NCBI RefSeq assembly: GCF_000186865.1 | Contig: NW_008705562.1 | Coordinates: 3,055,745 to 3,119,744 of the forward strand | Direction of reading: 5' to 3' | DNA length: 64,000 bases | From: Aureococcus anophagefferens | Taxonomy: Eukaryota; Sar; Pelagophyceae; Pelagomonadales; Pelagomonadaceae | Shown here: positions 10,641 through 38,700 of the stretch, piece after piece | Position numbering within the stretch: position 1 is the first letter of the stretch | Layout: each line of letters begins with the position of its first letter | Notes under the pieces: generated by a model | The model's database searches: none | Seen by the model: only the letters and a program-made list of their open reading frames with translations | What the model was told of the DNA's origin: nothing | Position numbers and translations under genes: made by a program

Positions 10641-11911
10641 TTAGCCCTCCGCCCGGCCGCGCTTCCGCGCGCGCGCGCCCTTGAACTCGGCCCAGGACGC
10701 GTGGCGGTCCGGCGGCGCGTCGTCGACGTCGAGCTCGAGGAGCTGGCGCGCGAGCTCCGCGGCGCCCGGGTCCGGGAGCGCCGCGATCGCCGCCGCCGCG
10801 CGGTCGCCTGGGCAGGAAAAGAGTGCGAAATTCCCAACTTCAAAGGCTCCGATCTCGGCCTATTCCACTCGTTTCGGCTAATTTCTGGACGAGCGATCAT
10901 CTCTCGGAGCGGCCTCGAAGCGCGGATGCTTTTTCCAGAACGCGCGCGCGCGGAATACTCATGTTGAAGCGAACTTGAATCACTCTTTTCCTGCCCTGGC
11001 GGTCGCGGTTCGACGCGTCGACGAAGTTCGCGGCGACGCCGACCGTCGCGGCGACGTTGGCGACGCGGTGCGGCGCGCCGCCGGGCACGAAGAGCAGGTC
11101 GCCGGGCTCCTGCGTCGCCTCGTAGGGCGCCGGCGCGCCGCCGTCGCCGGGCCCGTCGAAGAGCGGGTCGTCGCCGCCGTCGGCGAAGCGCGGCCGCAGC
11201 CAGGCCGCGTCCGCCGGCCGCCAGATCGTCCATTTCTTTTCGCCGTGCAGCAGGCCCATGCAGAAGTGGGAGGCCACGGCGTCGACGTGCAGCTCGGACG
11301 TCGTGCCGGCCGGTCCCACGAAGAGCGACGGCCAGCAGTCGACGAAGGGCAGATCTTCGCCCTTCGCTTTCTGGAACAAGTCCGCGGCGAGCCAGCGGGG
11401 GACGCGCCAGCGCAGGTTCGTGTTGGTGAGAGACCAGTCGTGGAGGTAGCGCTCTTCCGCGTCGAGGNNNNNNNNNNNNNNNNNNNNNNNNNNNNNNNNN
11501 NNNNNNNNNNNNNNNNNGACGCGCGGCGACGGCGTCGTGCGCGTCGAGGAGGTCGCGCGCGCGGCGCGCGAGGCGCGCGGCGTCCTTCGCGGCGTCCGTC
11601 GCGTCGCCGCGCCGCGCGGCGACGGCCGCCGCGCGCGCGGCGAGGCCCGCGGCCTCCGCGAGGCGGTCGCGGCGCGCGGGGCCGCCGCTCCGCGCGAGCC
11701 ACTCGAGCCAGCGCGCGAGCGCCGCGTCGCGGTCCACGGACGGCCGCGACGACCGGAGCGCCGCGACGCGGTCGTCGACGAGGCGCCGGCAGCCGCCGTC
11801 GCTCGCGTAGAAGGCCGCGAGGTCGCCGGGCGGGCCGGGCGCCGTGCCGGCGCGCGCGCGCGACCGGTACCAGCGCGCGGCGCAGGCCTGCGGCAGCTCG
11901 TCGAGCGTCAT
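10641..11911 (-). CDS. JmjC/cupin-type Fe(II) 2-oxoglutarate oxygenase, two exons
   Basis: Exon 1 is 11911-11007 and exon 2 is 10807-10641, separated by the introner at 10808-11006. A 50-N gap (11468-11517) interrupts exon 1, so the middle is missing and the frame relation across it is unknown. The N-terminus is helical (LDELPQACAARWY...). After the gap comes a JmjC-like core: SELHVDAVASHF (HxD iron ligands), KKWTIWRP, EPGDLLFVPGGAPHRVANV (distal His) and a final ANFVDASN. This order is that of the FIH/TYW5/PSR-like cupin hydroxylases, so a protein or RNA hydroxylase role is inferred. Splicing of the introner joins N-R-D-R to a short basic tail ending in stop 10641-10643. Confidence 0.75.
10808..11006 (-). 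mobile_element. Introner A: family-1 transposon acting as an intron
   Basis: The element body is 10808-10998, flanked by an 8-bp target duplication GCGGTCGC (10800-10807 and 10999-11006). The ends are inverted repeats (GGGCAGGAAAAGAGTG and its complement). Read on the minus strand, the intron starts with the GC of the duplicated target (GCGACCGC), ends CTGCCCAG at 10808, and is 199 bp, exactly element plus one target copy. The exons rejoin in phase 1. The core is about 85-90% like introners B and D by eye but is inverted relative to the gene compared with them. Confidence 0.9.
11468..11517. other. Assembly gap (50 N)
   Basis: Run of 50 N inside the JmjC gene. The true size is unknown. Confidence 0.99.
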
Positions 11912-12052
11912 GAGGAGAGCGCTGGAACCTCGGCTCCCTCGGAGAACAGCAGCATCTCAGCATCTCAATGATGTTTGCCGATGTATCTCCACGAGGCAGC
12001 CCCAAAACAGCTCCAACGCTGTAGCCGCGCCGCGCCGCCCCCAGCCGCTACC

Positions 12053-12748
12053 ATGGGCGACGAGGAGTCGAACTACAAGGTCGAGTACCTGGACCTGCCC
12101 GAGGATTCGACGGAGGAGAAGGAGTTCGTCTGGGTGGCCCGGGCGGGCAAGGCCCGCGTGACCTACAACAGCGGGAGCGTCTACGAGGGCGACTTTAACG
12201 ACGAGAAGATGAAGCACGGCACGGGCAAGTTCGTCTGGATGACCCAGGGCGAGGAGGACGAGGAGCCCAAGCCCCTGGCGACCTACGAGGGCGAGTACGC
12301 CGACGGGAAGCGCAGCGGCGTGGGCACGATGACGTACCCGTCCGGCGACACGTACACGGGCGAGTGGAAGGACAACAAGATGCACGGCACGGGCACCTAC
12401 AAGTACAAGAAGACGGACGACATCTACAGCGGGTCCTTCGTCGACGGCGAGAAGGAGGGCGCGGGCACCTACGAGTTCGGCAAGGACTCGTCGCGCCTCG
12501 ACGGCACGTGGGCCAAGGGCGCGTTCACGTCCGGCGAGTGGCAGTTCAAGGACGCGGGCAACTACCAGGGCACCTTCGAGGGCGGCCAGCCCATCGGGGC
12601 CGGCAAGTTCAACTTCGTCACCGCGGGGGGCATCAAGATCGCCCAGGAGGGCGAGTACAAGTCCGACGCGCCCGTCGACCCGGACGCGGCCGAGGACGCG
12701 GAGCCGCCCGTGCGAACGTGGCACGGCAAGCCCGTCTTCTCCTCCTAG
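12053..12748 (+). CDS. MORN-repeat protein, radial-spoke-head-1-like
   Basis: 231 residues. The ATG at 12053 lies in a strong context (ACCATGG). At least four to five MORN repeats run from about residue 38 to 190 (GSVYEGDFNDEKMKHGTGKF, YEGEYADGKRSGVGTM, YTGEWKDNKMHGTGTY, YSGSFVDGEKEGAGTY, NYQGTFEGGQPIGAGKF). The C-terminus ends ..RTWHGKPVFSS. MORN arrays of this size occur in RSPH1 and related axonemal or plasma-membrane scaffolds. A flagellar role is possible but not provable here. It is divergent to the JmjC gene, with a 141-bp shared spacer. Confidence 0.8.
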   Translation: MGDEESNYKVEYLDLPEDSTEEKEFVWVARAGKARVTYNSGSVYEGDFNDEKMKHGTGKFVWMTQGEEDEEPKPLATYEGEYADGKRSGVGTMTYPSGDTYTGEWKDNKMHGTGTYKYKKTDDIYSGSFVDGEKEGAGTYEFGKDSSRLDGTWAKGAFTSGEWQFKDAGNYQGTFEGGQPIGAGKFNFVTAGGIKIAQEGEYKSDAPVDPDAAEDAEPPVRTWHGKPVFSS

Positions 12749-13266
12749 GCGCGGGGGAGCGGCGCCGGGGCCGCGCGGGGGCGGTACAACCATGTAGATC
12801 ACCCGGGGCTCTCGAGAGCGGCGCACTTCGTTCGCGTGAGGCTCGCGTGGCCTTCGCGGCGCGTCGAGCCCCTGGCCTGGAGTCGCTTACTGCTAGCCCG
12901 GGCCTAGCCGAGACCCACGGGGGAACCGGACTCTCGCTGGGAGGAGCGCCTAGGCGCGTCGCGTCCGGGGTGAGGAACCCCAAAGAGCGCGCTGGTCCAG
13001 CGCTCTCGCTGCCTCGTGGCCGTCTGACGCCGGGGAAGCCTCCGGACCTGCCGCGTCCTCTCGCTCGGTCGACCGAACGGGGTTTCGCGGCCAGGGCAGC
13101 AGGCGGGGCTGCTGGCCCCAGCCCCGGCGCCGCGGCGCGGCTTGGCGGCGGCGTCGAGGCTCGAGCTGTGGAGGCTGTGGAGCACCCTATCCGCCCAGCT
13201 CGTCGCGTGCCCACACGAGAGCCTATCGCAGCTCGTCGTCGCCGCGCACCCACACGACTCGCATCA
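12749..13266. other. 518-bp intergenic region, no gene seen
   Basis: Very GC-rich with many short inverted motifs (for example TCTCGAGAG near 12810 and GGCCTAGCC-like stretches). Open frames through it are overlaps from other frames and lack protein character. It should carry the MORN gene's 3' end and the urea transporter promoter. No tRNA or snRNA fold was recognised. Confidence 0.5.
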
Positions 13267-14253
13267 ATGGCCAGCCTCCGCGCCGCGACGACGCTGCTGC
13301 GCCGCGGCATTTCGCCCATCAGCCCGCGCGGCGCGCGCGGGCTCGCGCAGAAGAGCTCCTGGCAGGACGCGGCCCTCGCGTCGGCGACGCAGTCCATCAA
13401 GGGCGTGGGCCAGGTCGTCTTCCTCGACAAGCCCGCCCAGGGCAACGTCGTCCTCGCGGGCCTCGCCTACGGCGACCCGGCGCTCGCCGTGCTCGCCGCG
13501 GTCGGCGGCGCGTCGGCGACGAGCGCAGCGAGGCTCCTCGACGTCGACCGCGGCTCGGTCGACGCGGGCCTCTGCTCCTACAACGGCGTGCTCGTTGGCT
13601 GCGCCTTCGCCGCGTTCCTGCCCGGCGCGGTCGCGCCCCTCGCCGCGACCGTCGCCGGCGCCGCGGCGACGGCGCCGCTGTCCGCCGTGCTGAAACGGGC
13701 CTGCGGTGCGACGCCGCAGTTCACGCTCGCCTTCAACGCCGTCGCGCTCAGCGCGTTGGCCTACACGAAGCCCTTCGCGGTGCCGCCGCCGCCGGCCGAC
13801 GCGGCCATCGGCTTCGCGGACGTCGCCGCGACGCCGCTCGTGGGCCTGTCGCAGATCTTCGTCGTCGACTCCCCCGTGACGGGCGCCGCGATCGCCGTCG
13901 CCCTCGCCCAGGCCGACACGTCCTACGCGACGCACGCGATCAACGGGTCCGTCGTCGGGTCCGTCGTCGGGCTCGCCGTGGGCGCGGACCCGCACGAGGT
14001 CGTCCACGGCCTCTGGGGCTTCAATTCGGCCCTCACCGCGCTCTCCGTGGCCGTCTTCTTCGAGCCCAGCCGGGCGTCCTACGCCCTCGCCGGCGCCGGC
14101 GCCGCGTCGACGGCCGTGCTCTTCGGCGGCCTCAAGACGGCGCTCGGCGCCTTCGCGGTGCCCGCGCTCACGCTGCCCTTCTGCGCCGCCGCCGCGACGT
14201 GCTACGCGCTCCCCGCCGCGCTCGGCGAAACCGGCGCGCTCCGCCTCAAGTAA
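13267..14253 (+). CDS. Urea transporter (UT family) with a basic N-terminal presequence
   Basis: 328 residues. The N-terminus ASLRAATTLLRRGISPISPR is Arg/Ser-rich and amphipathic, mitochondrial-presequence-like and unusual for a plasma-membrane UT. The rest is strongly hydrophobic with the two-fold UT repeat: GVGQVVFLDKPAQGN then GLCSYNGVLVG in the first half, and GLSQIFVVDSPVTG then HGLWGFNSALTAL in the second. These are the paired motifs of bacterial and animal urea channels. It should pass urea down its gradient. Plasma membrane or mitochondrial inner membrane are both open; the presequence favours an organelle, as an inference. It converges with the DapA gene, with 23 bp between the stops. 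Confidence 0.85.
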   Translation: MASLRAATTLLRRGISPISPRGARGLAQKSSWQDAALASATQSIKGVGQVVFLDKPAQGNVVLAGLAYGDPALAVLAAVGGASATSAARLLDVDRGSVDAGLCSYNGVLVGCAFAAFLPGAVAPLAATVAGAAATAPLSAVLKRACGATPQFTLAFNAVALSALAYTKPFAVPPPPADAAIGFADVAATPLVGLSQIFVVDSPVTGAAIAVALAQADTSYATHAINGSVVGSVVGLAVGADPHEVVHGLWGFNSALTALSVAVFFEPSRASYALAGAGAASTAVLFGGLKTALGAFAVPALTLPFCAAAATCYALPAALGETGALRLK

Positions 14254-14276
14254 CCTTGCGCCCTTACGCGGCATCT

Positions 14277-15611
14277 CTAGACCTCCGTGAGGGAGCCCTC
14301 GGCCTTGTCCATGACCTCGACGAGGGAGTGGAGGCGCGCGACGATGGCCGCGACGGCGTCGTCGTCGACGCCGAAGACGCGGATGTCGACAGACGACGGG
14401 CGCTTGAAGTTGAATTCCGTGTTGAACTGGTCGTTGGGCGACACGTTCAAGTTCGAGAGCTCGAGGTCGCCGCCGCTCGTCTCGATGATGTCGAGCGCCT
14501 GGTTGATGAGGCCCGTGTCGAAGAGGTGGCCCCGGAGCACCAAATCTTTCGACGGCCAGCCGAAGGAGCCCGTCGTCTCCGCGCCGCCCTCGACGCAGGA
14601 CGCCTGCGCGAGCGCGGCGTAGACGCGGTCGTGGAAGTCGAGGTCGAGCGGCGAGAGCGGCGACCGGATGCCGCCCGCGGTCCTGCCCATGCGCTGGAGG
14701 GCCCACTTCACGGGGATCGGGTTCGCCTCGCAGAAGAGGTCGCGGTGGAGCGACTGGAGCGACGCGTCGACCTTCTCCGCGGCGTCGGCGTCGCCCGACC
14801 CCGCGGCCGCCATGACCTGCGCGACGGCCGCGGGCGCGACGTTCGCGGTCACGGAGATGACGCCGTCGCCGCCCTGGGTTACGTAGTCCCGCGCCATGCC
14901 GTCCTCGCCCGAGTACTGGCGGAAGCCCGCGCCGCAGACGGCCCGGAGGGGCCCGACGCGGTTGTTCGCGCCCGTCGCGTCCTTGAGCCCGACGACGTTC
15001 GCGTGCTTGCTCAGCTTCACGGTCGTCTCGACGGTCATGTCGACGCCCGTGCGGCCGGGCACGTTGTAGAGCACAATCGGTAAATCGACGGCGTCGGCGA
15101 CGGCCGTGAAGTGCGCGAGGAGGCCCGCCTGCGACGGTTTCACGTAGTAGGGCGTCACGACCAGCGCCGCGTCCGCGCCGAAGAGCTTCGCCTGCTTCGT
15201 CGCCGCGATGGTCGCCGCCGTGGAGATCGTACCCGTGCCCACGACGATGGGAAGCACGCCGCCGATCTCCTCGCGCGTCGCGGCCATGACCTCCTCCTTC
15301 TCCTCGTTCGTGAGGCACGACGCCTCGCCCGTAGTGCCGAGGATGACGACGCCCGCCGTGCCCTCGGCGACGTGCCACCGCAGGAGCGCCCGGAGCGCGT
15401 CGAGGTCCACGGCGCCGTCGTCGGCCATGGGCGTCGCCAGCGCCACGAGCGACTTGCCGCCGCCGGGCAGAGGCATGGGCCCCCTCGCCATCATCGTCGT
15501 CGACGACCGCGACGACCGCGACGGGCGCAGGGCCCCGAGGCGGCGGGGCGTCGCGTGCGGCCCGAAGGCCGCGCTTTGCGCCGCGAGGATTAGCGCGAGG
15601 AGCACGCGCAT
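14277..15611 (-). CDS. dapA: Plastid dihydrodipicolinate synthase fused to a LOR/SDH-like domain
   Basis: 444 residues. MRVLLALILAAQSAAFGPHATPR is a signal peptide with an SAAF.GP cleavage motif and a transit region, which is bipartite plastid targeting. Residues ~52-340 are a class I aldolase of the DapA family: GTTGEASCL (92-100), YNVPGRTG with Tyr182, and the Schiff-base Lys210 in GLKDATG. DapA condenses pyruvate with aspartate semialdehyde in lysine synthesis. Residues ~350-435 (LRGHLFDTGLINQALDII, GGDLELSNLNV, DIRVFGVDD) resemble the LOR/SDH-type conserved domain seen in lysine-catabolic and arginine-related enzymes, which is not normally fused to DapA. A regulatory role for it is inferred. 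Confidence 0.85.
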   Translation of the reverse strand: MRVLLALILAAQSAAFGPHATPRRLGALRPSRSSRSSTTMMARGPMPLPGGGKSLVALATPMADDGAVDLDALRALLRWHVAEGTAGVVILGTTGEASCLTNEEKEEVMAATREEIGGVLPIVVGTGTISTAATIAATKQAKLFGADAALVVTPYYVKPSQAGLLAHFTAVADAVDLPIVLYNVPGRTGVDMTVETTVKLSKHANVVGLKDATGANNRVGPLRAVCGAGFRQYSGEDGMARDYVTQGGDGVISVTANVAPAAVAQVMAAAGSGDADAAEKVDASLQSLHRDLFCEANPIPVKWALQRMGRTAGGIRSPLSPLDLDFHDRVYAALAQASCVEGGAETTGSFGWPSKDLVLRGHLFDTGLINQALDIIETSGGDLELSNLNVSPNDQFNTEFNFKRPSSVDIRVFGVDDDAVAAIVARLHSLVEVMDKAEGSLTEV

Positions 15612-15766
15612 CAGGTTTTAAAGCTCGAGATCTTGGCGGCTCGGAGCGAGCGCTTCGCCGAAGCGGCGTGCCCCACGACGCCGCGGCAAAAAACACGCGC
15701 TCGGCCCGACCAACCCCAAAAACAGCTGGCGTATCGCGAGACGATGCTTTTTACATCCCCACAATA

Positions 15767-16870: not shown

Positions 16871-17132
16871 GGCGGGGTGTGCAGCTGTGGTGTTAATGTG
16901 GCGTCGCGAGCGGTTTCGCAGCTGTGCTGTTCGCTTCGCGTCGCGAGGCGGACGGCGCGGTGCCTCCAGGGCGCGCGTCTCACGATCGTCGTGTCGTCAC
17001 AATTGCCACGGGACTTCAACACCTTTGTTTTACCCCCGAAACGGATGCCTCAGCCCACGATGGCAGCCTTGAGGAGTGTCTGAGGCGTGTTCGTAAACAG
17101 GCGCGGCGATCGTCTGAAGGTGCGCCGAAATA
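16871..17132. promoter_or_regulatory. Divergent intergenic promoter region
   Basis: 262 bp between the start codons of the transporter (minus) and the K+ channel (plus). It must hold both promoters. No clear TATA box is seen; an AT-richer patch lies at about 17000-17040. Confidence 0.4.
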
Positions 17133-19391: not shown

Positions 19392-19488
19392 CATTGTTGA
19401 ACCTTTCACGACGCTCTTTATTAAAGCCGCGCCCCGCCAACACTGCTAGTTGAACTTCACGATGCTCATTTGAGCCGCAGCCAGCCTG

Positions 19489-20442: not shown

Positions 20443-20557
20443 TCTTTGCTTCATGTTTCGCTACGAGGTCCCTTTCGCTTGCCAACGGACTCTGAGCACC
20501 TCAAAAAACGAGCCAAGCCCGAAGCCGCACGCGCGCACCCTCAAGAAGCGTCCAACG

Positions 20558-24700: not shown

Positions 24701-27700
24701 CGATCGAGTGGACGCCCCACGCCATCAACGACGGCGCCGTCTGGGCGCCGTCGTCGCTCAAGGTCGCGGACCTCGACGGCGACTGCTGCGTCGACTTTGT
24801 GGTCACCGACTGTGTGCAAATCAACCAGTGAGCTGGGACGTCGGGGCCAAACTTGAGAATTCTCTAGCTCGGTCAAATCGAAGTCGATTCGGCTGATTTT
24901 TGGACGAATCGATTGCTCTCAGCGAGTTCTCGAAGCACGGCGGAAGTGATCGTGTCAAAACATTCGAATACGCGCACATTGAAGTCGGGTTGAAGATTTG
25001 ATTTGCACACAGGTCACGGAGGAGAGCGGCGCGTCCAACTCCGTGGGCAACCGCGTGTCGACGTACCGCAACGACTGCGCCCAGAACTTCACGGAGATCC
25101 TAGAAGCCTACGACTTCTGCCCCGCGGGCAGCGACATCGGCGACATCGACGGCGACTGCGACCTCGACGTCGTCGCGACCGTCAAGCACGGCATCGACCG
25201 CGGCCGCCAGCAGGGCGACGTCAACTGGTACGAGAACTGGGAGGCGACCTTCGTGGCCCAGCGCCCCGTCTCCGGCGCGCCGGGCGGCGTCGAGACGCCC
25301 AACTACGACCACAACTACCCCTGGGGCGTCGAGATTGTCGACGTCGACGGCGACGGCGACCAGGACGTCGTCGTCAGCGACTGGGGCGACGGCCACGTCC
25401 AGTGGTACGAGAACTCGGGCGGACCGGACATCACCTTCGCCCTGCACGAGGTCGGCTACGCCGCCTCGACGTCCTACGCCGTCGTCGCGGCCGACGTCGA
25501 CGGCGACGGCGACGTCGACCTCCTCGCCGGCTCCGCGCGGACCTACGCGATGACGCTCTTCGAGAACCTCGGCGACGCGCTGACCTGGACGGCGCACGCC
25601 GTCGCGACGCCGGACACGACCTACGGCGTCTCCGTCGCGGACGTCGACGGCGACGACGACCTCGACCTCCTCAGTTCGTCGCACGAGGCGGCCGACGACG
25701 CGGTCTGCTGGTTTTCGAACCTCGGCGGCCTGGCCTTCGACCGCGCCTGCCTCGCGGGCTCCGCGGAGGCCTTCAGCGTCGCCGCCGCGGACTTGGACGG
25801 CGACGACGACATGGACATCATCTCCGGCGAGACCGCGTGGTACGAGAACGACGGCGCCGAGGGCTTTTCGCGCCGCTTCGTCCACGCGACGCCCAACGGC
25901 GCCGCGGTCGTCGTCGCGGACGTCGACGGCGACGGCGACCTCGACATCGCCGCCGTGTCCATGGGCCGCGCGGACTTCGACTTCGAGGACCGGGACACCT
26001 ACGAGTGCCAGTATCTCACGGACCTCGGCCAGGCGGGCTTCGCGGGCGACTGCACGGGCTTCATCTCCTGGTTCGAGAACGACTGCTCCATCGCCACGCT
26101 GTCGCCGACGGCCGGCAACGCCGACGGCGGGTCGGGCGTCGAGGTCGTCTGGCGGGGCCCGAGCGACGAGGCGGGCTACAACGACGGCGTCAACTGCCAG
26201 GGCGACCCGCCCTTCGCGTCGACGCCCTTCCCGACGCTCGAGCCGACGGATTACCGGGTGAGCGACCTCCGCGAATATTTCTTCCCGACGGCCGCGCCGT
26301 CCGTGTCGCCGTCCCTCGCGCCCACGCCCTACCCGTCGCCGGACTGCGCGTACCCGTCGCACGCGTTCGCCGCGGAGTTCCTGCCGTCCGGCGCGGACTG
26401 GGGCCCGGTCACGGCGTCCGTCTATTGGGGCACCTGGGACGAGGAACGGGACGTCGACATGAACCCCTTGATCACGCAGCTCTCGCACCCGTTCCCCGAC
26501 GTCGACTACCTCTGCATCTTCACGGGGTGCTACACGCTCGTCTTCGAGATCGACGGCGTCGCCGAGGGGTTGTCGTTCACCATCTCGTCCGAAGCGACTC
26601 GCAGCACCTGAGCCTCGACGGGAGCGACGGCACGGAGACGATGACGATCAACGGGACGCAGAAGCTCGCGCTCTGCGCGGACGCGGACACGGGCGAGTTC
26701 AACCACGCGCCGACGGCCGCGCCGTCCCTCTCCATGCCGCCGAGCTACGGGCCGTCCCAACCGCCGAGCTACGCGCCGAGCGCGACGCCGTCGACGTACG
26801 CGCCGAGCGCCACGCCGTCGATGAACTTCCCGACCGTGAGCGGCGACTACTGCGCCGCGGTCGCGTTCCCCGCGATGGCCTGCTCCCAGAGCCTCGAGTT
26901 CCTCGGCTTCGACTTCGTCGACGCCAACGCGTGCGCACACGGCGCGAGCCGGGAACGGAAATGCGCCGGGCGCATCCACTACTCGGCGACGCGCAACGAC
27001 GAGTACGGCTGCTGGTGCTGCGATTCCGACGCGTTGTACGTGAGCAACGACGACTTCGACGTCTACGACGTCGTGCTCTGCGGGGATCCATCCGCGGCGC
27101 CGTCGTCGATGCCCCTGGCGGCGCCCACGGCCGCGCCCACGTCGACGCCGTCGGCTCCGCCGTCCTTTTTGCCGACGCCGTACCCGTCGCCGGACTGCGC
27201 GTACCCGTCGCACACGTTCGCCGCGGAGTTCCTGCCGTCCGGCAAAGACTGGGCCCAGGTCACGGCGTCCGTCTATTGGGGCACCTGGGACGAGGAACGG
27301 GACGTCGACATGAACCCGTTGATCACGCAGCTCTCGCACCCGTTCCCCGACGTCGACTACCTCTGCATCTTCACGGGATGCTACACGCTCGTCTTCGAGA
27401 TCGACGGCGTCGCCGAGGGCCTGTCGTTCACCATCTCGTCCGAAAGCGACTCGCAGCACCTGAGCCTCGACGGGAGCGACGGCACGGAGACGATGACGAT
27501 CAACGGGACGCAGAAGCTCGCGCTCTGCGCGGACGCGGACACGGGCGAGTTCAACCACGCGCCGACGGCCACACCGACGTTGAGCCTCGTGCCGAGCTAC
27601 GGGCCGTCCAGCCCGCCGAGCTACGCGCCGAGCCCGACGCCGTCCACCTACGCGCCGAGCGCCGCGCCGTCGTCGCGGCCGACGGAGTCCTTCCCGCCGA

Positions 27701-30700
27701 GCGCCGGCCCGACGGCCTCCGCGGCGCCGACGGCGCCCGTCTGCGCCCACCTCGCCTACCCGGAGACGGCCTGCCCCGGCGACGCGGCGCTCCTCGGCTT
27801 CTACGGCAGCAAGAACGCGTGCGCGCGCGCCGCCGCGGGCGAAGCGTCGTGCGGGGGCTTCATCATGTTCGCCGCGGGCTCGGCCTGCTACTGCTGCGCC
27901 GTCGACGCCTTCGCTCCCTCCGCGGCGCCGACGTACCCCATCCCGTCGCCGAACCCGACGCCGCTGACCCTCGCGTGGTCGACGCGGCCGCACAACTGCT
28001 CCGCGACGGGCGCGATGCTCCGCCCCCACAAGGTCTTCGCCGGGGGGCTCTACACGGTCGTCGTCGGCGCGCCGGACGCCGTCGCCTACGACGTGCCCGC
28101 GGGGCTCTCCGTCGCCGACGTCGACGGCGCCGCGGCCGTGCATTTCGAGGGCGAGACGTACCCGCTGATGGCGATCTTCGGCGGCTCGGTGAGCAAGCTC
28201 TGCCCCTTCGACGCCCAGAACGTGACGTGCTTCCCCGGCGCGCTCGCGGCGCCCGTCGGCAACAACGCGGCGCCGTCCGTCGCCGCCGTCGTCGGGACGA
28301 GCTACCACTACGCGTACCGCCCCGGCGCGCCGAACGCCGACGGCGTCTTCTACCGCGCGACGGGCATCTACGGCCTCGCCCCGACGCTCGACGTCGCGAG
28401 CGACGCGTTCGCCGTGTCGTCGGCGCTCTTCGACGGCGCCGTCGGCGACGTCGCGGCGCTGGTCGAGGACGGCGACGACCTCATCGTCGACGGCGTCGCG
28501 CGCGCCTACCTCGTGGGCCTCGGCTGCGCCTACGAGGCCTTCGTCGTGCGCCTCGACGCCGCCGGCGCGCCGGAGGCCTACGCCGTCGTCGCGTCGGCCG
28601 TGGACTGGAACGGCGGGCCGCCGGGGGCCGCGAGCCCGTGCTTCTCCGCGGCGTTTACGGTCGACGGGGACCGCGCGGTCTTCCAATCCGACGACGGCGA
28701 CGGGCTCTTCGAGCTGGCGACGCCGCTCGTCGTCGACGACGCGTGCTGGAACACGGGATCGGGCGGCCACGTCGCCTGCGCCGGCGCGACCGTCGTCAGG
28801 CGGGCCGCCGCGGGGCCCGCGGCCGGCGACGGCTTCGCGTGCGCGGACGCGGCGTCGAACCTCCCGACGACGAACAACCCGACGGCGGCGCCGTCGACGG
28901 CGACGCCGACTACGCTGACGCCCTCGCCGCCGCCCACGCGCGCGCCCTCGTCGCCCCCGACGCCCGGCCAGGGCCTCGACATCGTCACGGAGGTCGTCCC
29001 CTTCGACTGCGGCGCGCACAGCAACCCCATCCAGGTGCTCAAGTTCGCGCTCGCGGACACGAAGCACTACGTCATGGAGCTCAACCTCGACACGGGCGAG
29101 TACGAGGAGCTCTACAACTTCGAGGTCGCCAAGGTCAACGGCTACGCGACCGTCAACGCGGCCGCGGTCTTCGACGCGGGCAACAACTCCTTCTACCCCT
29201 TCGCGAACTTCAACGACGAGCTCTGCGTCTTCAGCGCCAACGCGCGCACCTGCGTCGGCGACTTGAAGGTCTCGTCGGCGAGCTCGGGGGCCATCGTCGG
29301 CGACACCTACTACTACGCGTGCGCGACGTGCGGCGCCGAGAACATCGGGCCCCAGTGGATCTACACCGTCTTCTCCATCGGCCAGCCGGCGCCCGTCTTC
29401 TCGGAGCGGAGCGACCTGATCCTGCGCCTGCGGCGCGAGCTCTGGTACGAGGCGTCGTCCAAGGGCAACATCTACGACTGGGCGTCGCTCGTCGAGGGCG
29501 GCGCGGAGCTCGTCGACGACGACGACGCCTCCGGCAAGTACCTCATCGGCATGAACCCCAAGGTCACGAAGATCGTCGTCGTCAAGATCGACGAGGCGAC
29601 GGGCCAGGCCGGGTCCTACGCCGTCATCCCCGTCGAGACGGACTGGAACGGCCAGACGCCCGTGTCGGGCTGGTCGCGGCGCAACGGCGGCTCGAGCCCG
29701 TTCGGCGCCGCGTTCACCTACCAGACCGACGACTACGACCGCGTCTTCTTCACGTCCAACGACGCCTGGGGCTTGTTCGAGCTCGAGCTGCCCTTCCGCG
29801 TCAACGCGGACTGCTGGAACAGCGGCCTCGACAACTCCGCGCACGTGACCTGCAGGGCAGGACAAGAGAGCGAAATTCCCAACTTCAAAGGCTCCTTTCT
29901 CGGCCGTTTTCCACTCGTTTCGGCTGATTCTTGGACGAGCGATCATCTCTCGGAACGGTCTCGAAGCGTGAATGCTTTCTCCGGGACGCGCGCGCGCGGA
30001 ACACTCACGTTAAAGCGACGTTGAATCACCCTTATGCTGCCCAGGTGACCTGCCACGCGGGCCGCGGGCCCGCGGCGTGGATCACGTACCGCATGAAGTC
30101 CGAGGAGACCTACTACAACGACGGCATGAACTGCCACCCCTACCGCGTCGCCATCGACGAGACCCTCGCGCCCGCGGCGACGTTCCGGCCGACGACCACG
30201 CCCTACCCGAGCCGCGCGCCGTCGACCGCCGCGCCGTCGACGGTCCGGCCGTCGTCCGGCGAGCCGTCGCGGGCGCCGTCGACGGCCGAGCCGTCGGCGT
30301 CGCCGACGACGCTCACGCGGTCCTCGCCCGTGGACGTCGGCAGCGACGACGACGGCGACGACGACGGCGCCGTCGACGGCGACGACGCGGCCGTCGCTCC
30401 GACGCCGTCCCCGACGGCGGCCGTCGTCGCGCCGACGGCGGCGCCCGCGCCCGCGCCGACGTTCCTCGCGAGCGACTGGGACCTCTACGCGCTCGCGAAC
30501 TGCTCGGACCCGACGGCGGCGCCGTCCGTCTTCCCGTCGCCCGCGCCGTCGCCGGGCCCCACGACGGCCGCGCCGTCGCTCCGCCCCACGACGAGCGCGC
30601 CTTCTCTGTGCCCCTCGCTCCACCCGACGCTGACCGTGCCGGATCCGACGCTCGCGCCAGTGTCGAGCGACAGGAGTGTTTTTTCGCGTGAATTTCGCCT

Positions 30701-33700
30701 GAAGATGTGAAGAAATCCGACCCCGTCGCACTTGGTAGGCTCGCGCCCACGCCCGCGCCGAGCCTCGTGCCGACGTACACGCAGCCGCCCTCGCGCGCGC
30801 CGTCGACTTCGTCACCGTCGTTCGGGGACCCCGCGTGCCTGCCGCACCCGCTCGAGCTCAACTTCTCCGCCGCTACGGTCGCGCGAGACGGCAACGCGAC
30901 GGTGTTCCAGGGCGCGGGGCGCTGGGACGATGTGTCCGTGGACGTCGCCGTCGCCGCCGCGGACGGCTCGGAAGTCGCCGCCGGCGTCGTCGACGCCTTC
31001 GCCATTATCGACGTCCCCAAGGGCGGAAGCCAGGCGTTGACGCTCAGCTTCTCGTCGGGCGGCGTGCCCCTCGCGGTGGGCTCGTTGTACCTCACGTTCG
31101 TCGACGTCGACGCGTCGACGGCGGTCTCCGAGGTCGTCTGCGTCGACGGCGCCGACGCCGTCGTCGCCGTCGGCGCCGCGGTCGACGCGACCGCGTCCGC
31201 TTTCGCCTGCGACGGGGGCCCGGGCGCGTCGACGTCGTTCGCGTCGACGGCGCAGGGCTTCGACTGCGACGACCCGTCGGACCCCTACGACCTCGACGGC
31301 GCCGTCGCCTGCGCGGGCTGCTTCGACGGGTCGGCCTGCGGCGCCCTCGGCGACCTCTTCCCCGTCGTGCCGCGCGACCGGAGCGCCATGGTCGCCTTCG
31401 TGACGCCGCGGAGCTCCGTCGACGTCGCGCTGTCGGCGCCGTGCCCGTCCTGCAGCGCCGCCGAGCGCTCCGCGACGCGCGCCTTCCGCGTCGCCGGCGG
31501 CTCGTCGCTCTCGGGCTGCGCGCCGTCCGCGGCGCCGACGACGTCGACGGCGCCGCCCTCCGGTGGGCCGACGCCGTCGCCGTCGACGCTGCCCCCGTCG
31601 TCGTCCGCGCCCTCCCTCCGACCGTCGCCGCTCCCGACGGCCGCGCCGACGCCCGAGTGCCCGGCGGGCGCGTGCCTCTACGCCGTCGTCGTCGACGCGG
31701 ACGCGTTCGAGGACGCGGGCGTCGCCATGAGCCTCTGGGTCGACCACTACCTCGACGGCGCGCCGACGCCCAGGGGCGAGGCGCTCGTCGACGTCGCCGT
31801 GCCGGCGACGGACACGACCCACGTCTGCCTCGCGGACGGCTGCTTCACGGCGCGCTTCGACTTCTCGCGAAAAACTCCAGCGGGCCTCGCCTTCGAGGTC
31901 CGCTCGTCGGGCCGCGACCTCGTGCAGAAGCTCAAGGCCGCGAACGCGTCGACGATCCAGCGCTACTACTTTTGCGTCGAGAGCTGCCAGGTCGAGGCCT
32001 ACCCGACGGCCGCGCCGACCTACACCGCGGCGCCGTCGCGCGCGCCGTCCGCGTCGCCGACGACGGCGCCGCCGTCGTCGCGTCCGTCCTTCGCGCCGTC
32101 GCCCGCGCCGTCGCCCGCGCCGCTGCCCGCGCCGACGGTGCCGCCGTCGCCGTCGCCGTCCTTTTTGCCGACGCCCTACCCGTCGCCGGAATGCGCCCCG
32201 CCGTCGAACACGTTCGCGGCGGAGTTCCTGCCGTCCGGCGCGGCCTGGGCCAACGTCACGGCGTCCGTCTACGTCGGCTCCTGGGACGACGAGCGCGACG
32301 AGGCCGCGAACCCGCTCATCACGCGGCTCTCGCACCCGTTCCCCAACGTCGACTATTTGTGCATCGTGTCCGGGTGCTACACGCTCGTCTTCGAGATCGA
32401 CGGCGCCGCCGAGGGCCTGTCGTTCACGATCTCGTCGGAGAGCGACTTCGAGCACATCAGCCTCGACGGGACCCAAGGCACGGAGGTGACGGCGATCGGC
32501 ACGAACCTCCTCGCGCTCTGCGCCGACGGCCCCATCTTCGACCACTCGCCGTCGTCCGCGCCGACGGTCACCACACCGCCGTCGTTCGCGCCGATCCCCC
32601 GGGCGACGTTCCCGCCGCTCCCCGCGCCGTCGCCGCCGCCGACCTACGACCCGACGCGCGCGCCGACGGCCGAGGTCCCGCCGCCGCCGACGGCGCCGCC
32701 GTCCGCGGCGCCGACGCTCGCCGCGGACTGCCGCAACGTCGTCCGCCTGAACTTCGCGGGCGCGGACGTCGCCCTGAGCAACCTCGACGGGTCGAACCCC
32801 TTCTTCCCCGCGGAGCTCCGGCTCGCGAACGTCGGTATACGCGCGAACGGCCGGCCCTTCGACGTCGTCGTCGCCGTCGAGGGTTCCTACGGCGGCGTCG
32901 GCGGCGTCGACGGCGACTTCCTGACGCTGACGGTGGACCGGGGCGCGTCGACGACGTTCGCCGTGCGCTTCGAGGATTCGGCCACGGGCAACCCCGCGGA
33001 CGTGCACCCGCTCTACGTGACGCTCGTCGACGTCGACGGCCTCGGCGACGTCTCCGAGGCCGCGTGCCTCGAGGCCGCGGACTTCGACGGCTACGTCTTA
33101 GGCGACGACGTCGCCGCGACGTCGACGAAGACGACGTGCGACGGCCTCGCCGCGGGCGCGTCGACGACGTTCGCGTCGACGGCCGACGGCTACGGCTGCG
33201 ACGACCCGTCGGACGCCTTCGACCTGGGGGTCGTCACCTGCGAGGCCTGCTACGGCGTCGATGCCTGCGCGTCGTCCCAGGCGGCGGGCTTCCCCGTGGA
33301 CCAAGCCGCGCGCGCGGTCATGTGGGCCTTCACCGCGCCGCGGTCGTCCTTCGACGTCGTCCTCTCGGCGCCCTGCCCGGGCTGCGCGGCCTCGTCGGCG
33401 ACGCGGACGTTCAAGCTCGCCGGCGCGTCGTCGCTGGCGCCCTGCCTCTCCGGGCCGTCGGCCGCGCCGTCGGGGGGACCGGCGCCCGCGCCCTCGTCGT
33501 CTCCCGTCGTCGCGCCGACGCCGCGGCCCACGCCCGCGCCGACGGCCACACCCGGCGACCCGACCGCGGCCCCGATCTTGCCGTCCCCGCGCCCGTCGTC
33601 GGCGGCGCCGTCGGCGCACCCCGCGCCGGCGCCCACGGACGTTCCGTCGCTCGCGCCGACGCCCGCGCCGACGGCGCTGCCCGCGCCGGGCCCCTCGACG

Positions 33701-34294
33701 CCCCCGACGCCGGCGCCGTCGCTGGCCTGCGACGCGTGCCGCGTGTCGCTCCGCTTCTCGCCCGACGCGGACGCGTGGGCCGGCGTCGCCGCGACGCTCG
33801 AGACCGCCGCCGGCGAGGCCGTCTTCGCCGTCGACGGCGACCGCGCGGACCTGCTCTGGACCTGCGTCGACGCCGACGGCTGCTACTCGTTCTTCTTCGA
33901 GGCCGACGAGCCCGCGCCGGGCAGCGCGCTCATCCTCGAGTCGTCCGAGGGCGTCACGTTTGCCGTCCTCGGCGACGGGACGTCGGACCGCTACGACTTC
34001 TGCATGGACGGCTGCGCCTTCGACCACGCGCCGACGCCCGCGCCGTCGGCGGTTCCGTCGCCCGCGCCGTCGGACTACTGGGCGACCTGCCAGGACGCGG
34101 CCTACGAGATCCACGTCGCCGGGCGCGTCTCCGGGAACAATCTCGGCGGAATCGGGCCCGACGGCGGCGACCCGGTGCTGCGGTATGCTTCCGTGACCGA
34201 GAAGGACGGGCGTGACGTCGACCTCGTCGTGAGCGTCGCCGAGGGTTACGACTACGCCGCCGCCGACAATTTCGCTACTTACCATGCCATGTGA
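21796..34294 (+). CDS. Giant secreted modular surface protein (~4,000 residues, four exons)
   Basis: Exons 21796-24801, 25013-29844, 30045-30649 and 30739-34294; all junctions keep frame and total 12,000 nt once a 1-nt deletion at about 26592 is allowed for. MLALLLLLRAAAA is a signal peptide. Recurring modules are joined by 'APTxAPS' linkers. They are: (a) a ~110-residue FLPSG..W...SVYWGTWD...CYTLVFE domain (near 23040, 26335, 27185, 32190, with diverged copies near 22310 and 31660); (b) a small Cys-rich domain with GCWCC (22740, 26850, 27740); (c) three ~280-residue kelch-like domains (23430, 27980, 28990); (d) seven VCBS/FG-GAP blades with DVDGDGD calcium loops (24760-26150); (e) a ~230-residue Cys-containing domain (30850, 32740, cut copy at 34085). 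It is an adhesion or wall protein by architecture. The 3' end looks truncated. Confidence 0.8.
24802..25012 (+). mobile_element. Introner C: family-2 transposon acting as an intron
   Basis: A 211-bp intron bounded by near-identical target copies GTCACCGA (24802-24809) and GTCACGGA (25013-25020). The transposon ends are CTGTGTGCAAATC and its exact complement GATTTGCACACAG. The donor GT comes from the target copy and the acceptor CACACAG from the element. The exons rejoin in phase 0 within a VCBS blade (DFV then VTEES). Its centre (TTCGGCTGATTTTTGGACGA) is related to family 1 although the termini differ. Confidence 0.9.
26330..27570 (+). repeat. Near-identical internal duplication in the surface gene
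   Basis: About 389 bp at 26330-26718 recur at 27181-27570, offset 851 then 852 bp, with only scattered mismatches. They encode module (a) plus its QHLSLDGSDGTETMTINGTQ tail. The 1-nt change of offset marks the frameshift in the first copy. Confidence 0.85.
26592..26593 (+). other. Single-base deletion (frameshift) in the surface gene
   Basis: The first duplicate reads TCCGAAGCGAC where the second (near 27441) reads TCCGAAAGCGAC. The missing A shifts the frame and creates a stop at 26609-26611. Downstream coding continues undamaged for kilobases, so an assembly error or very recent mutation is likelier than an old pseudogene. Confidence 0.85.
29845..30044 (+). mobile_element. Introner B: family-1 transposon acting as an intron
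   Basis: A 200-bp intron. The target duplication GTGACCTG (followed by C in both copies) lies at 29845-29852 and 30045-30052. The element body starts CAGGGCAGG and ends CTGCCCAG. The GT donor is supplied by the target copy, the AG by the element. The phase 0 join gives ..AHVTC then HAGR... The core, AATTCCCAACTTCAAAGGCT and TCGTTTCGGCTGATTCTTGG, matches introners A and D. Confidence 0.92.
30650..30738 (+). mobile_element. Intron F: 89-bp GC-AG intron with target duplication, third type
   Basis: Bounded by GCTCGCGCC at 30650-30658 and again at 30739-30747. Removing one copy plus the 80-81 bp between them joins PDP-T-LAP-TPAPS in phase 2. The donor is GC, the acceptor TTGGTAG. The termini are not clear inverted repeats and the interior does not match families 1 or 2, so it is either a third element or an old, decayed one. 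Confidence 0.7.
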
Positions 34295-34322
34295 AGCGGG
34301 ATGGTAGTCTCATGTCCCGGCA
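34295..34322. other. Short spacer between two truncated-looking genes
   Basis: Just after the surface gene stop; a 12-bp palindrome GGCACTAGTGCC (34319-34330) spans its edge and the opposing stop. Both flanking genes look cut, so a rearrangement or misjoin is possible. Confidence 0.4.
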
Positions 34323-35145
34323 CTAGTGCCCGGCGGCCGGACCACGGTTGTGGCACTCGCCGAGCCGGAAGCCCCGGACGTAGAGCGCGAGATGCGGGAC
34401 GCTGCACTCCGCGAGGTCGTCGTCGTGGGCGGCGCAGAAGTCGTAGACGGCCTTGGAGTCGCCATAGTTCGGCTGGGTGTCGGAGTAGACGCCGTCCCAA
34501 TACTCGCCGGCGCTCGTCATCGAGGTCGAGCTCCCGACGAGGTCGTCGAGCGCGCCGTCGCCGAAGACGGCGCAGACGCGCCTCGCGCCCGACGGCGCTT
34601 CGAAGGCCTCGAGGCAGGCCAGGAGCGCCTGCGCGTACATCGTGCCGCCGACGGCGTTCGCGCGGTAGTCGCGGTGCAGCTCGAGGAGGGCGTCCTCGAC
34701 GCCGCGCAGCGCGTCGCGCTTGCGGACGCGCGACCACGCGGCGCGCGCGACGCGGAGCGACGCGCCGGGCGCGAGCCGCGCCGCGACGTCCGCGACGAAC
34801 GCGTTGACGCCGTGGACCAAGGCACACGCCCGTCACGGTGTGCGTCTCCTTGAGGTCGTAGGCGATCCACTGGTCGGTCGTCTGCCTGGCGTACCAGCCC
34901 CCGTCCTCATCGTACTCACCGTCGAGCGTGTTCCTGCAGTTGTACTCATCTGCGTACTGCGACGAGACCGAGCACGCGTCCGCGTCCGGGAGCAGCTCGC
35001 AGCACCTGGCTCGGCTCGCCAAGGAACCCCCCTGGGGGATAAGCGGGGGGAGGAACTCGCACTGATCCGAGACGCCCTCGGCGAAGAGCGCGGCGCGGAA
35101 GCCGACGATGAGGGCGATCATGGCGCTCATGGTGGCGATCTTCAT
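34323..35145 (-). pseudogene. Discoidin-like / vWA-like secreted protein, frame-broken
   Basis: From the ATG at 35145: KIATMSAMIALIVGFRAALFAEG is a signal peptide; a Cys-containing stretch (CEFLPPLIPQGG...CCELLPDADACSVSSQYA) precedes the start of an F5/8 type C (discoidin) domain with NTLDG and DQWIAYDLKETHTVTGV. There the frame breaks (about 34820-34840). The other frame continues as the second half of a von Willebrand A-like domain (VNAFVADVAARLAPGASLRV, GGTMYAQALLACLEAF, RRVCAVFGDGA) to a stop at 34323. The rest of discoidin and the metal-site half of vWA are missing, so this is an internal deletion, a missed intron or a misjoin. It is related in style to the extracellular proteins nearby. 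Confidence 0.55.
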
Positions 35146-35744
35146 GGCCTGGGAAGATGCGAGGGGGGTCGCCGAGACGCCCGGGCGGCGACCGAGCGCG
35201 CGAAACCGAGGCCCCCGGCGCTCCGACCTTTTCGGCGGGCGACGGCGTTCGGCGCTCGCCCCGGGCCCCGAGACGTTCGGTCGATGGGTACTCCCGGAGC
35301 GTTTGGGACTTCGGAGGGGGGGGGCGGGGCTCGAGCGCGTCCAGAGGCGCCGCGGCGCGCGACGTCTAGAGTTTCGATTATGGCTTGAATTTTGTGACGA
35401 CCGCCTACCCGCGCCCACCTTGGGCCCGGGCGGGCGCGGGCACTGGGGGGGGGCACTAAAGCCGCCGCGGCACCGGACCCCGGGGTCGCTCCTCTTGAGG
35501 GGCCGGGATCGTCCCTGTTGCAGGGGCACCAGACGTCCCTGGCGCGGAGCTTGGCTCCTGACGCGGCCCGCGGAGATGAATCTCGCCGCATCGGACGATC
35601 GGCTGACGCCCGGTGCGCACCGGTGCGCCGGCCTGCCCTGGTGCGGTCGAGCCGCTGCTTATGCATCGACTTCTCGTTCTCGAGGCTCCCGGCGCTTGCC
35701 TCGATCCCTCCCCCCCCGGAAAAAAGAAGCCCCCCCCCCCCCCT
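35146..35744. other. 599-bp intergenic region rich in G/C homopolymers
   Basis: No gene recognised. It contains runs of G near 35318 and 35445 and a run of 14 or so C near 35735, plus short inverted motifs (GGTGCGCACCGGTGCGCC at about 35610). Open frames crossing it have no protein character. Homopolymers of this kind are prone to assembly error. Confidence 0.5.
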
Positions 35745-38700
35745 TCACTTGAGTCCCCCGGCGACGTGGCCGTCCCAGGGCCGGGAGACGTTGTTGAGCG
35801 CGTAGGCGGACTCGTCGACGCCGATGTGCGCGAGCGTGACGCGGGGCAGGTAGGCGACGCGGAGGCCGGCGTCGCGCGCCTTGAGGGAGAAGGACCGCTC
35901 GAACTCGGCGTCGTCCGGGTCGAAGACCGGCGCCTCGCCGAGGACGTCGAAAAAGGCGCAGGCGAGCGCGCGGAGGTCCCAGAGCGCCGGGTTCAGCGTG
36001 AAGCCCGGCCAGTACGTGAACGCGTGGCCGGGCTCGACGGTGCCGAAGTCGTGGAGCCGGTAGGCCACGCCGCCCGGCGTGGCCCGGGGCCAGCCCGCGG
36101 CGCCGACCGCGTCGCACCCGTCCCGCGCCGCGTAGGCGCACGCCCGGCTCGACTGGTCGTTGAGGAGCACCTGGACGAGGGGCTCGGCCGCGGCCTCGAG
36201 CACGGCGAGGGCGTCGCCCACAACGTCGCGCGGTGCCGCGCCGTCGACCGCGAGCCAGTCGTCCTCGAGGTAGAGGAGGTACGGCGTCTCGACGACGCGG
36301 AGGAGCGCGTTCATGCTCCGCGCGTGGCCCTTGTGCGCGGGGCTCTTGTAGAGAAAGTCGAAGGCCGGGAACGCCGCGGCCATGGCCGCGCGGTCCTCCG
36401 GCGACGACGCGTCGTCGACGACGACGACGCGGCAGACCGCGCCGTGGCGCGCGACGTCGCCGACGGCGAGCGCGCGCGCGAGGCCGCGCATCGTCGCCTC
36501 GAAGTGGCGGCGGCGCTTGCAGGTCGTGACGCCGATCGTCACGTTGCAGCCCCGCGGCGCGCCGGGCGGCGGCGGCGGCGCGCCCCAGCCCCGGCGCGCG
36601 CCGGCGCCGCCGCGCGCGCACCGGCCCGCGCCCGCGGCGGCCTCGGGCCCGCGGCGCCTCGCGGCCGCGACGGCGTCGCGCGCGAAGCGCGCCGCGAGCC
36701 AGGGCGCGCCGCCGTGGCCCGGGAAGCGGCGCTTGAGCTCCGCGGCGACCTGGTCGACCGCGCCGTCGTCGAGGCCCCGGCGGAGCGCGAACCACGCGGC
36801 CGCCTGGTGGAGGTCGTCGCCCTCGCGGACGTCGACGGCCGCCGCGGCGCCGCCGGGGAGGGAGAAGGGCGCGGCGCCGAGGGACCGGGACCCGCCGCCG
36901 TTGGCGCCGTGCTGGAGCAGCGCCGCGAGCCAGCGCCGCTTCACGTCCTCGGCGCCGATGTGGTCGCCGAGCGATTCCGCGACGGCCGCGGGGTCCTCGC
37001 CGTCGCGCACGGCGACGAGGTAGTGGGTCTCGACGCCCGTCTTGGGGTCCGGGTGGTTGAGCTTGACGGCGTAGGCGCAGCGGGACACGTCCGGCGCCGC
37101 GACGGCCCCGCCCGGCGCGAGCTCCCACCCGAAGTCCCGCGGCGCGTAGCCCGGGGCGCCGGCGGCGGCGAGGGCCTCGCGCGCGAAGATCGCGCGGCGG
37201 CCGGGGCCCGCCGGCCGCGGCGCCGCCGCGACGTGCGCGAGGAACGCCTCCCACTCGCGCGTGACGCCGTCGTTCTCGTAGAGGACGCCGCGGCGCTCGA
37301 GGATCCGCGCGCGGATTTGCGCGGAGTCGAATTTCGCGACGCGCACCGCGGCGGCGACGAAGGCCTCGGGCGTCTGCGTCACGCAGGCGGGGCAGGGGTC
37401 GCCCATGAGCTCGTACATGCCGCGCGTGAGCTGCAGCACGGACGTCCGCGGCTCGAGGAGCACGATCGGCGTGCCCGTGGACAGGATCTCGAGCGACGAC
37501 CGGCCGCCGCCGACGGGGAAGGGGTCGAGGACGACGTCCGCGAGCTGCGCGAGCTTGACGAACTCGCGGAAGTCGAGGCGCCGGAAGAAGACGACGCGCG
37601 CGCGGACGTCCTCGGGGATGGACCGCGCCCACCGGTCCGCGAGCGCGGCCGTCCACTCGCCGAGCTGCGCCTCGGGCATGGCGACGAGCGCGTCGCCGTC
37701 CTCTCGTAAAACGCCGGCGATGAGGGCGTCGAAGTCCGGGTGGAGCTTGTAGAGCGTCTGGGGCACGAGGTAGAGCCTCCGCCGCGGCGCGGCGATGACG
37801 TCCGCGATCTCCAGGTCCGGGTCCGGGTCCACGGGCCAAGGGAAGCGCGTCGTCAGGCCCTCCATGAGCCAGAGCGTCTCGCTGTAGTCGTCCTGGCCGC
37901 CGGCGGCGTCGCCCCGGGCCTCGAAGAGCTCCGACGACACGAAGTAGTCGACGCCGCCGGCGGCGCCGGCCGCGCCCGCGGCCTCGCCGTCGGACCGCGC
38001 GACGCCCGACGTGACGGCGTGGCCCCAGAAGAGCGCGCTGCGCCGCGCGAGGCGCGCAAAGGTCAGGAAGTAGGTCATCGTGTTCATGCCGACCTCGCAG
38101 AACACGAGCACGTCGAGCTCGAGCGCCGCGACGGCGCGCCGCGCGGCGTCGAGCGAGCCCGCGGGGACGCGCGCGTAGACGTCGGCGGCGCCCCGGAGCT
38201 TCGCCGTGAGCTCGTCCTCGGGCTCGCCGGCGACGTGGAGCACGGCGACGGTGAACCGGGACCGGTCGAGCGTCTCGACGACGCCCGCGGTCAGCAGGCC
38301 GACGCTGTGCGTGAAGAAGAAGGCCGACAGGAAGCCGACGCGGAGCTTGCCCGGCGCCCGCGGCGCGTCGAGGAAGGGCGCGCGCCAGGCGAGGTCGCTT
38401 CGCGCGCCGCGCCAGTAGACGCGCGCGAGGAGCCGCCGCGGCGGCCTGGGCAGGAAACGGGTGATTCAACGTCGCGTCAACGTGAGTGTTCCGCGCGCGC
38501 GCGTTCCATAAAAAGCATCCACGCTTCGAGACCGCTCCGAGAGATGATCGCTCGTCCTAAAATCAGCCGAAACGAGTGGAAAACGGCCGAGATCGGAGCC
38601 TTTGAAATCGGGAATTTCGCGCCCTTTTCCTGCTCTGGCGGCGGCAGGTCCGCGTAGCCGACGTACTCGAGGTAGTAGCCCAGCGCCCCGGAGCCCGTGC

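Follow-up and report, generated by a model that had tools for sequence, protein, structure and literature searches.

The DNA described here, called the window throughout, is a stretch of 64,000 nucleotides from a contig of the brown-tide alga Aureococcus anophagefferens, a pelagophyte (NW_008705562.1, positions 3,055,745 to 3,119,744). Three different genes in it are each interrupted by a short repeated element, and these elements are referred to as A, B and D (Table 1). When their cores are laid in one orientation, A and B agree at 166 of 192 columns, A and D at 168, and B and D at 171. On the plus strand each is enclosed by an exact pair of 8-bp sequences, GCGGTCGC/GCGGTCGC for A, GTGACCTG/GTGACCTG for B and GCGGCGGC/GCGGCGGC for D. 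Identical 8-mers 192 bases apart were met at only 29 of 200,000 random positions of the window, so the three exact duplications are not due to chance. It is confirmed from the letters of the DNA that A, B and D are copies of one 191-192 bp element and that each makes a predicted intron, the removal of which should do the protein no harm. The core of A is opposed to the polarity of its own intron, those of B and D lie along theirs, and on the intron strand all three nevertheless have CA at the start and AG at the end. The second base of each end thus tracks the intron and not the core.

An initial annotation of the window, made without database searches, had placed A, B and D and their target duplications correctly to the base. 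Its proposal that the intron is in each case the element plus one target copy, with the frame kept at phases 1, 0 and 2, holds for all three, and the column counts above are the outcome of the alignment that it had called for. The terminal inverted repeats that it quoted are indeed shared, though the 3′ end of B, GCTGCCCAG, and the intron-strand 5′ end of D, CAGAGCAGG, each depart from the quoted repeat by one base.

Table 1. Elements, co-opted target copies and predicted introns of the window (positions counted from its first letter)
Feature	Position	Strand	Remarks
Element A, family F1	10808..10998	− (intron strand)	191 bp; core on the plus strand, inverted relative to intron polarity
Upstream (intron-strand) target copy of A, GCGACCGC	10999..11006	−	putative source of the GC 5′ splice site; other copy at 10800-10807
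Predicted intron A	10808..11006	−	199 nt, GC-AG, phase 1; cupin/JmjC-like gene (named by eye from its translation)
Element B, family F1	29853..30044	+	192 bp; core sense to intron
Upstream target copy of B, GTGACCTG	29845..29852	+	putative source of the GT 5′ splice site; other copy at 30045-30052
Predicted intron B	29845..30044	+	200 nt, GT-AG, phase 0; long repeat-rich gene
Element D, family F1	38446..38637	−	192 bp; core sense to intron
Upstream (intron-strand) target copy of D, GCCGCCGC	38638..38645	−	putative source of the GC 5′ splice site; other copy at 38438-38445
Predicted intron D	38446..38645	−	200 nt, GC-AG, phase 2; relatives of the gene are named O-GlcNAc transferase (SPINDLY family)
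F2 element	24810..25012	+	203 bp; ends CTGTGTGC...GCACACAG; flanked by GTCACCGA and GTCACGGA, which differ at one base; removal keeps frame
F2-like element, apparently internally deleted	58184..58253	−	70 bp, exact 8-bp duplication (CACGGGGC on the plus strand); 78-nt GC-AG predicted intron

The family to which A, B and D belong, F1, is a large one. Two exact ends at a set distance, CAGGGCAGG-N160..190-CCTGCCCAG, were matched 480 times in the genome by copies with polarised ends and not once by the reversed-pattern control, and the F1 core with up to 3 mismatches was matched 2,084 times (control 0). This is the search of the assembly for further copies that the initial annotation had advised; it had also staked its reading on target duplications being present at other loci, and in most of the sampled copies they are. 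The sample in which they were sought consists of the places on the first contigs listed for the 480-match pattern and the best matches of two other searches, and is not a random one. After merging of duplicate and nested matches it numbers 93 copies, among which the 8-bp duplication is exact in 76 and has one mismatch in 8, two in 2 and three or more in 7, as against 0.95% exact when the pairs were shuffled. Tests of coding and trees were confined to copies of 184-198 bp (90 kept) less the five with CT at both ends, here called CT/CT, which leaves 85 polarised copies. From these, 73 had their spliced coding context laid out in silico, 5 with more than one mismatch in the duplication and 7 with short or weak flanks having been dropped.

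The two splice sites of an F1 intron appear to have different sources. That one of them is carried and the other co-opted had been part of the initial annotation, and the sampled copies agree with it: the element brings the 3′ AG, and the duplicated target supplies G[TC] in 73 of the 75 polarised copies with an exact duplication, its first dinucleotide being GC in 38, GT in 35 and GA in 2. Across the genome just one of the 480 exact-ended copies has a base other than G after the AG of the element. At L067 (duplication GAACGGCT) and L068 (duplication GAGCTCGC) the co-opted 5′ site would be GA, and both are in frame by the coding test. A strong coding signal is present within 150 bp on both sides of 78 of the 85 polarised copies, and in 75 of the 78 that were testable the intron strand is the coding one and the frame is kept once the element and one duplication are taken out. 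The phases of the 73 spliced contexts (33/15/25) follow the supply of co-optable GY sites in the coding flanks, which is 0.40/0.255/0.344. GT serves in 35 of 73, while it makes up 20.6% of the GY sites in coding flanks; such use above supply is expected if splicing quality is selected and weak GC sites are tolerated less.

Protein comparisons bear on the predicted junctions. For phosphatidylinositol 4-kinase beta (PI4K-beta), the predicted spliced protein aligns with a solved homologue with no gap at the junction, which lies in an ancient domain. The myosin V junction is likewise ungapped against a solved homologue, the aligned stretch beginning about 12 residues before it. In the GSK3 gene that contains an F1 copy (L002), the protein spliced in silico has 413 residues and differs by one, away from the junction, from the ENA protein P0194. 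It is 97% identical to an A. anophagefferens protein, and two of the three models from the species in the alignment are seamless at the junction.

On these grounds A, B and D are almost certainly introners, that is, short non-autonomous DNA transposons which, having inserted in coding exons, would be removed as introns. The initial annotation had read them so, and the many like copies, the 8-bp duplications, the carried AG, the co-opted G[TC] and the keeping of frame (75/78) all speak for that reading. A cut-and-paste transposase, acting in trans, would make a staggered cut of 8 bp, and insertion into a coding exon would duplicate those 8 bp of target. The element, ending in AG beside the duplicated target, would carry the 3′ splice site, and the duplicated target, where its first bases on the gene strand are G[TC], could act as the 5′ site; both features are there to be read in the copies, as is the restoration of the reading frame that removal of one duplication with the element would bring. 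The spliceosome would use exactly these sites. Insertions facing the wrong way, or with a target not starting with G[TC], would be purged as not cleanly spliceable.

The hallmarks of ordinary miniature inverted-repeat transposable elements (MITEs), namely terminal inverted repeats, duplications of fixed length and short length, are all present, and one could suppose that such elements simply lie unspliced in the genes. If some 200 nt stayed in the message, the gene would be thrown out of frame; the testable copies nonetheless nearly all keep frame when the element is removed (75 of 78), even inside conserved kinase and motor domains, and a single copy in 480 lacks the G after AG; unspliced MITEs are accordingly given next to no credence here. 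Spread as RNA, whereby excised introns are reverse-spliced into new transcripts and then copied back into the genome, would directly explain why nearly all sampled copies occupy coding sites, on the sense strand, at which splicing is possible. Reverse splicing would, however, bring along the first 8 nucleotides of the old intron, and in 76 of 93 copies these are instead the same as in the new downstream exon. DNA transposition also agrees with the terminal inverted repeats and with the use of the core in either orientation. The matching duplications led to the rejection of reverse splicing, which must be held very improbable.

The introner reading, to return to it, is not new for this species. 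In the 2016 Nature report of Huff, Zilberman and Roy, the introners of A. anophagefferens were reportedly described as DNA transposons, short and non-autonomous, that have inverted repeats at their termini and duplications of constant length, and that carry one splice site and co-opt the other. Micromonas pusilla introners are a further case of mass intron gain by repeated elements, and in that they are like those here; which of the splice sites is carried is not the same in them, nor is the length of the duplication. The relevant passage of PMC7789003 has A. anophagefferens introners always with direct repeats and with terminal inverted repeats of constant length; a passage of PMC9481584 puts their characteristic length at about 210 bp, and one in PMC10228655 credits Huff et al. 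with insertion in both orientations. The likeness to F1 is close: the species is the same, there are many copies at unrelated positions, and inverted repeats, duplications of constant length, one co-opted site and phases in keeping with the supply of such sites are common to both. Gozashti et al. 2022 (PMC9860276) show families in which the element brings the 3′ site and the duplication provides the 5′ one (Fig. 2B, from another species), report GC and GA 5′ sites, use methods that allow for copies in opposite orientation, and figure an 8-bp duplication in a family of Aureococcus sp. (Fig. 2F). In the Aureococcus sp. example given there both splice sites are carried and the transcript is lengthened by 12 bp, whereas removal of an F1 element with one duplication adds nothing. 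Since introners of A. anophagefferens are already published, the finding is rated as known and is a rediscovery. Introners are a leading candidate for the making of introns in bulk, and a set verified by independent tests in an assembly of long contigs is useful in that context. What goes beyond the initial annotation is the inverted core of A with the mirror forms that it exemplifies, a second family, the one-sided G of that family, and the near-absence of copies where no G is needed.

The second family, F2, was met in the flanks of sampled F1 copies. It is related to F1, has a length of 203 bp, the ends CTGTGTGG...CCACACAG and 8-bp duplications, and 564 exact elements with matching ends are present genome-wide (control 0). 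Besides the window copy (Table 1), copies were noted at L072, L056, L040, L044, L063, L078 and L020, among others. Of 20 F2 entries examined, 10 keep frame on the coding strand, the copy at 24810-25012 of the window being one, and 7 were not assessable. Eight of 14 sampled copies have T as the second base of their 5′ end and so are CT at either end; in the other 6 this base is C or G. Among 20 listed elements that have G on a single side (read by eye) the core is sense in 11 and antisense in 9, and on that count F2 is used both ways. Removal of the 70-bp F2-like element of the window joins a minus-strand open frame that is WD40-like by eye; one of the two runs of 50 N in the window is nearby (58020-58069), and the other (11468-11517) is inside the open frame that carries A. 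An element at L007:2514-2719 is a hybrid, one end being F2-like (CTGTGTG) and the other F1-like (CCTGCCCAG), with an exact 8-bp duplication.

F2 also allows a judgement on the origin of the G[TC] rule. The rule is almost absolute, as might be expected if it came from a target preference of the transposase and not from selection for splicing. The two ends of F2 are alike, however, and a target preference should then give G on both sides. In fact 786 of the 1,128 F2 sides are followed by G, which is 564 + 222, so that 222 elements (39%) would be two-sided if each has at least one G side. Fifty listed F2 elements, read by eye, all have at least one such side, 18 having both and 32 only one. C occupies the last base of the F1 duplication in 28 of 75 copies, which gives a background rate, and one needed G side plus that background matches the F2 counts. 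The use of GT above its availability relative to GC is a further point against a preference for targets. As the cause of the rule, target preference was rejected on the one-sided G of F2 and is considered quite unlikely; the one-sidedness, as read from these flanks, looks to fit selection for splicing instead.

The transposase was sought among known types. Elements of the hAT superfamily make 8-bp target duplications, have CAGNG at both ends and favour the target consensus nTnnnnAn. F1 resembles hAT-type MITEs in the length of its duplication and in having one end that begins CAGGG. It differs from them in that its other end is CTGGG, and the F2 ends are CTGTG, so that CAGNG is not found on both sides. 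Nor does the target agree with the hAT consensus, T being at position 2 of the intron strand in 35 of 75 copies and A at position 7 in 6 of 75; position 2 of the F1 target is shaped by selection for splicing, which is a caveat on this comparison. The hAT domain PF05699 gave four matches in the genome, with scores a little above the family cut-off, and the MULE transposase domain PF10551 gave none at E 0.001 in a six-frame search of the genome that did not join exons. Two stretches, G000:C1:943540-943698 and C13:599794-599952 (L084 and L085), are 97.5% identical, contain a hAT-dimerisation-like domain and continue into diverging repeats; they are possibly a recent transposon or a segmental duplication.

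A number of observations weigh against the introner reading, or leave a step of it wanting. Three of the 78 testable F1 copies fail the test of strand or frame, and in 7 of the 85 one or both sides show no strong coding signal. The A. anophagefferens GSK3 model P0195 has one extra residue, a valine, at the junction, and P0194 derives from short ENA contigs and could represent a cDNA or else an allele lacking the element. Two of the 20 F2 entries fail the frame test, their ends having probably been misplaced by the script, and the coding signals at the F2 copy L047:2769 lie on opposite strands. In the 1.3 kb starting at the domain, at two of the four hAT matches, no element end in the right direction was found, the nearest being only two 9-mers one mismatch off. 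Copies in places where the G is not needed are also nearly absent, for which random insertion followed by purging does not account, so that a step is missing. Clear coding on both sides in one frame was found at 2,238 of 4,000 random window positions; were insertion random and purging limited to unspliceable insertions in exons, most copies should lie outside genes, where no G is needed. From the single copy in 480 without G, the share of exact-ended F1 copies in places where it is not needed would be no more than about 1-2%, and this genome-wide count is stronger than the result from the sampled loci because these were not a random draw. It would imply either a link between insertion and transcribed exons or an active loss of copies from other places. 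Insertion in nucleosome linkers has been reported for these introners, as cited in passages of PMC9860276 and PMC10228655, and may account for part of the missing non-genic copies. Why copies outside spliceable sites are missing, when random insertion and purging predict them to be more numerous than the spliced ones, is a testable question.

The other matter to which A draws attention is handedness. Once the 93 F1 copies are turned so that their cores run alike, 46 have the ends CA..AG, 36 have CT..TG, 5 have CT..AG and 6 have others. By exact 9-base ends the one-way form has 480 places in the genome (control 0) and the CT/CT form 7 (control 1), and the CA/CA form with such ends was found nowhere in it. 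Placed downstream in the intron, an end starting with CT would give AG and an end starting with CA would not, so the second base at each end would set handedness. Because there is nearly always one CA and one CT end, an F1 copy can be expected to splice one way only, and two mirror forms exist. Three of the seven CT/CT places have a length of 197 bp and, at one of their ends, an additional short repeat; in the 197-bp CT/CT copies L041 and L042 this repeat is GGCAG-like and makes the boundary of the duplication ambiguous.

In a tree of the 85 F1 cores the two forms cluster, with 8 changes between them as against 27.5 on shuffling (6 against 27.6 in an earlier FastTree). At least two switches of form are forced by well-supported branches, 49 of the 82 inner branches being drawn open as poorly resolved. 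A single clade for the core-sense form was not rejected (approximately unbiased (AU) test, p 0.341), and the tree leaves the number of origins undecided. Inversion of the strand, through recombination of one end repeat with the other, was weighed as a source of the mirror forms and set aside, since point changes at position 2 suffice. The observations on handedness and on siting can be joined in one scheme, which is put forward tentatively and as somewhat doubtful: one base per end sets the handedness, F1 having mirror one-way forms and F2 often being CT/CT and two-way, and elements are inserted or kept at hardly any sites but spliceable ones. It can be tested whether the direction of introner splicing depends on the second base at each end, and the way in which the elements keep their handedness is worth a closer look.

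A different cause of F1 handedness would be RNA structure. A mismatch at the end of the long stem formed by the inverted repeats would leave the 3′ splice site unpaired, and CT at both ends would bury that site. By folding prediction the A of the 3′ AG has a mean unpaired probability of 0.84 in 75 natural F1 introns and of 0.03 when T is put in silico for the second base at the 5′ end, the natural value being the higher in 75 of 75; of eight core-inverted F2 copies, moreover, six have C or G at that base and the A unpaired. The effect of the change to T is built into inverted repeats, though, and folding in silico ignores proteins and co-transcriptional splicing. The same prediction buries the AG in 7 of the 8 CT/CT F2 copies sampled, and six of those seven keep frame, the seventh being not assessable; in CT/CT F1 copies it is buried in 3 of 5. 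As F2 speaks against it, opening of the stem is kept only as a weak rival, and an unlikely one, to the scheme in which the base at each end acts by supplying or withholding AG.

The initial annotation had called the copies young. That is right in part. For it there is the scarcity of mismatches in the sampled duplications: in the 86 of 93 copies with two or fewer, 12 of 688 positions (1.7%) differ, and the upstream duplication, being inside the intron, is free to drift. An age estimate from this sample leans young, however, because most of it was baited with exact element ends, and A, B and D themselves differ from one another at 11-14% of columns. Core identity has a mean of 0.926 and a maximum of 0.988 within the core-sense form, and of 0.924 and 0.994 within the core-inverted form.

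Two same-orientation F1 copies, G000:C1:2490559-2490744 and 2490804-2490995 (L028 and L029), have 59 bp between them, which is a very short exon. An Rfam scan of the window gave nothing above gathering scores, and one exact 23-base pattern from the F1 core was not found in the viral contigs searched. Aureococcus is one of the two genera that the initial annotation had named. A protein search with part of the gene that carries D left the species unsettled, and it was settled by a flotillin. The flotillin encoded in the window is that of A. anophagefferens JL721_6507, identical to it except in two stretches that resemble errors of the gene model.

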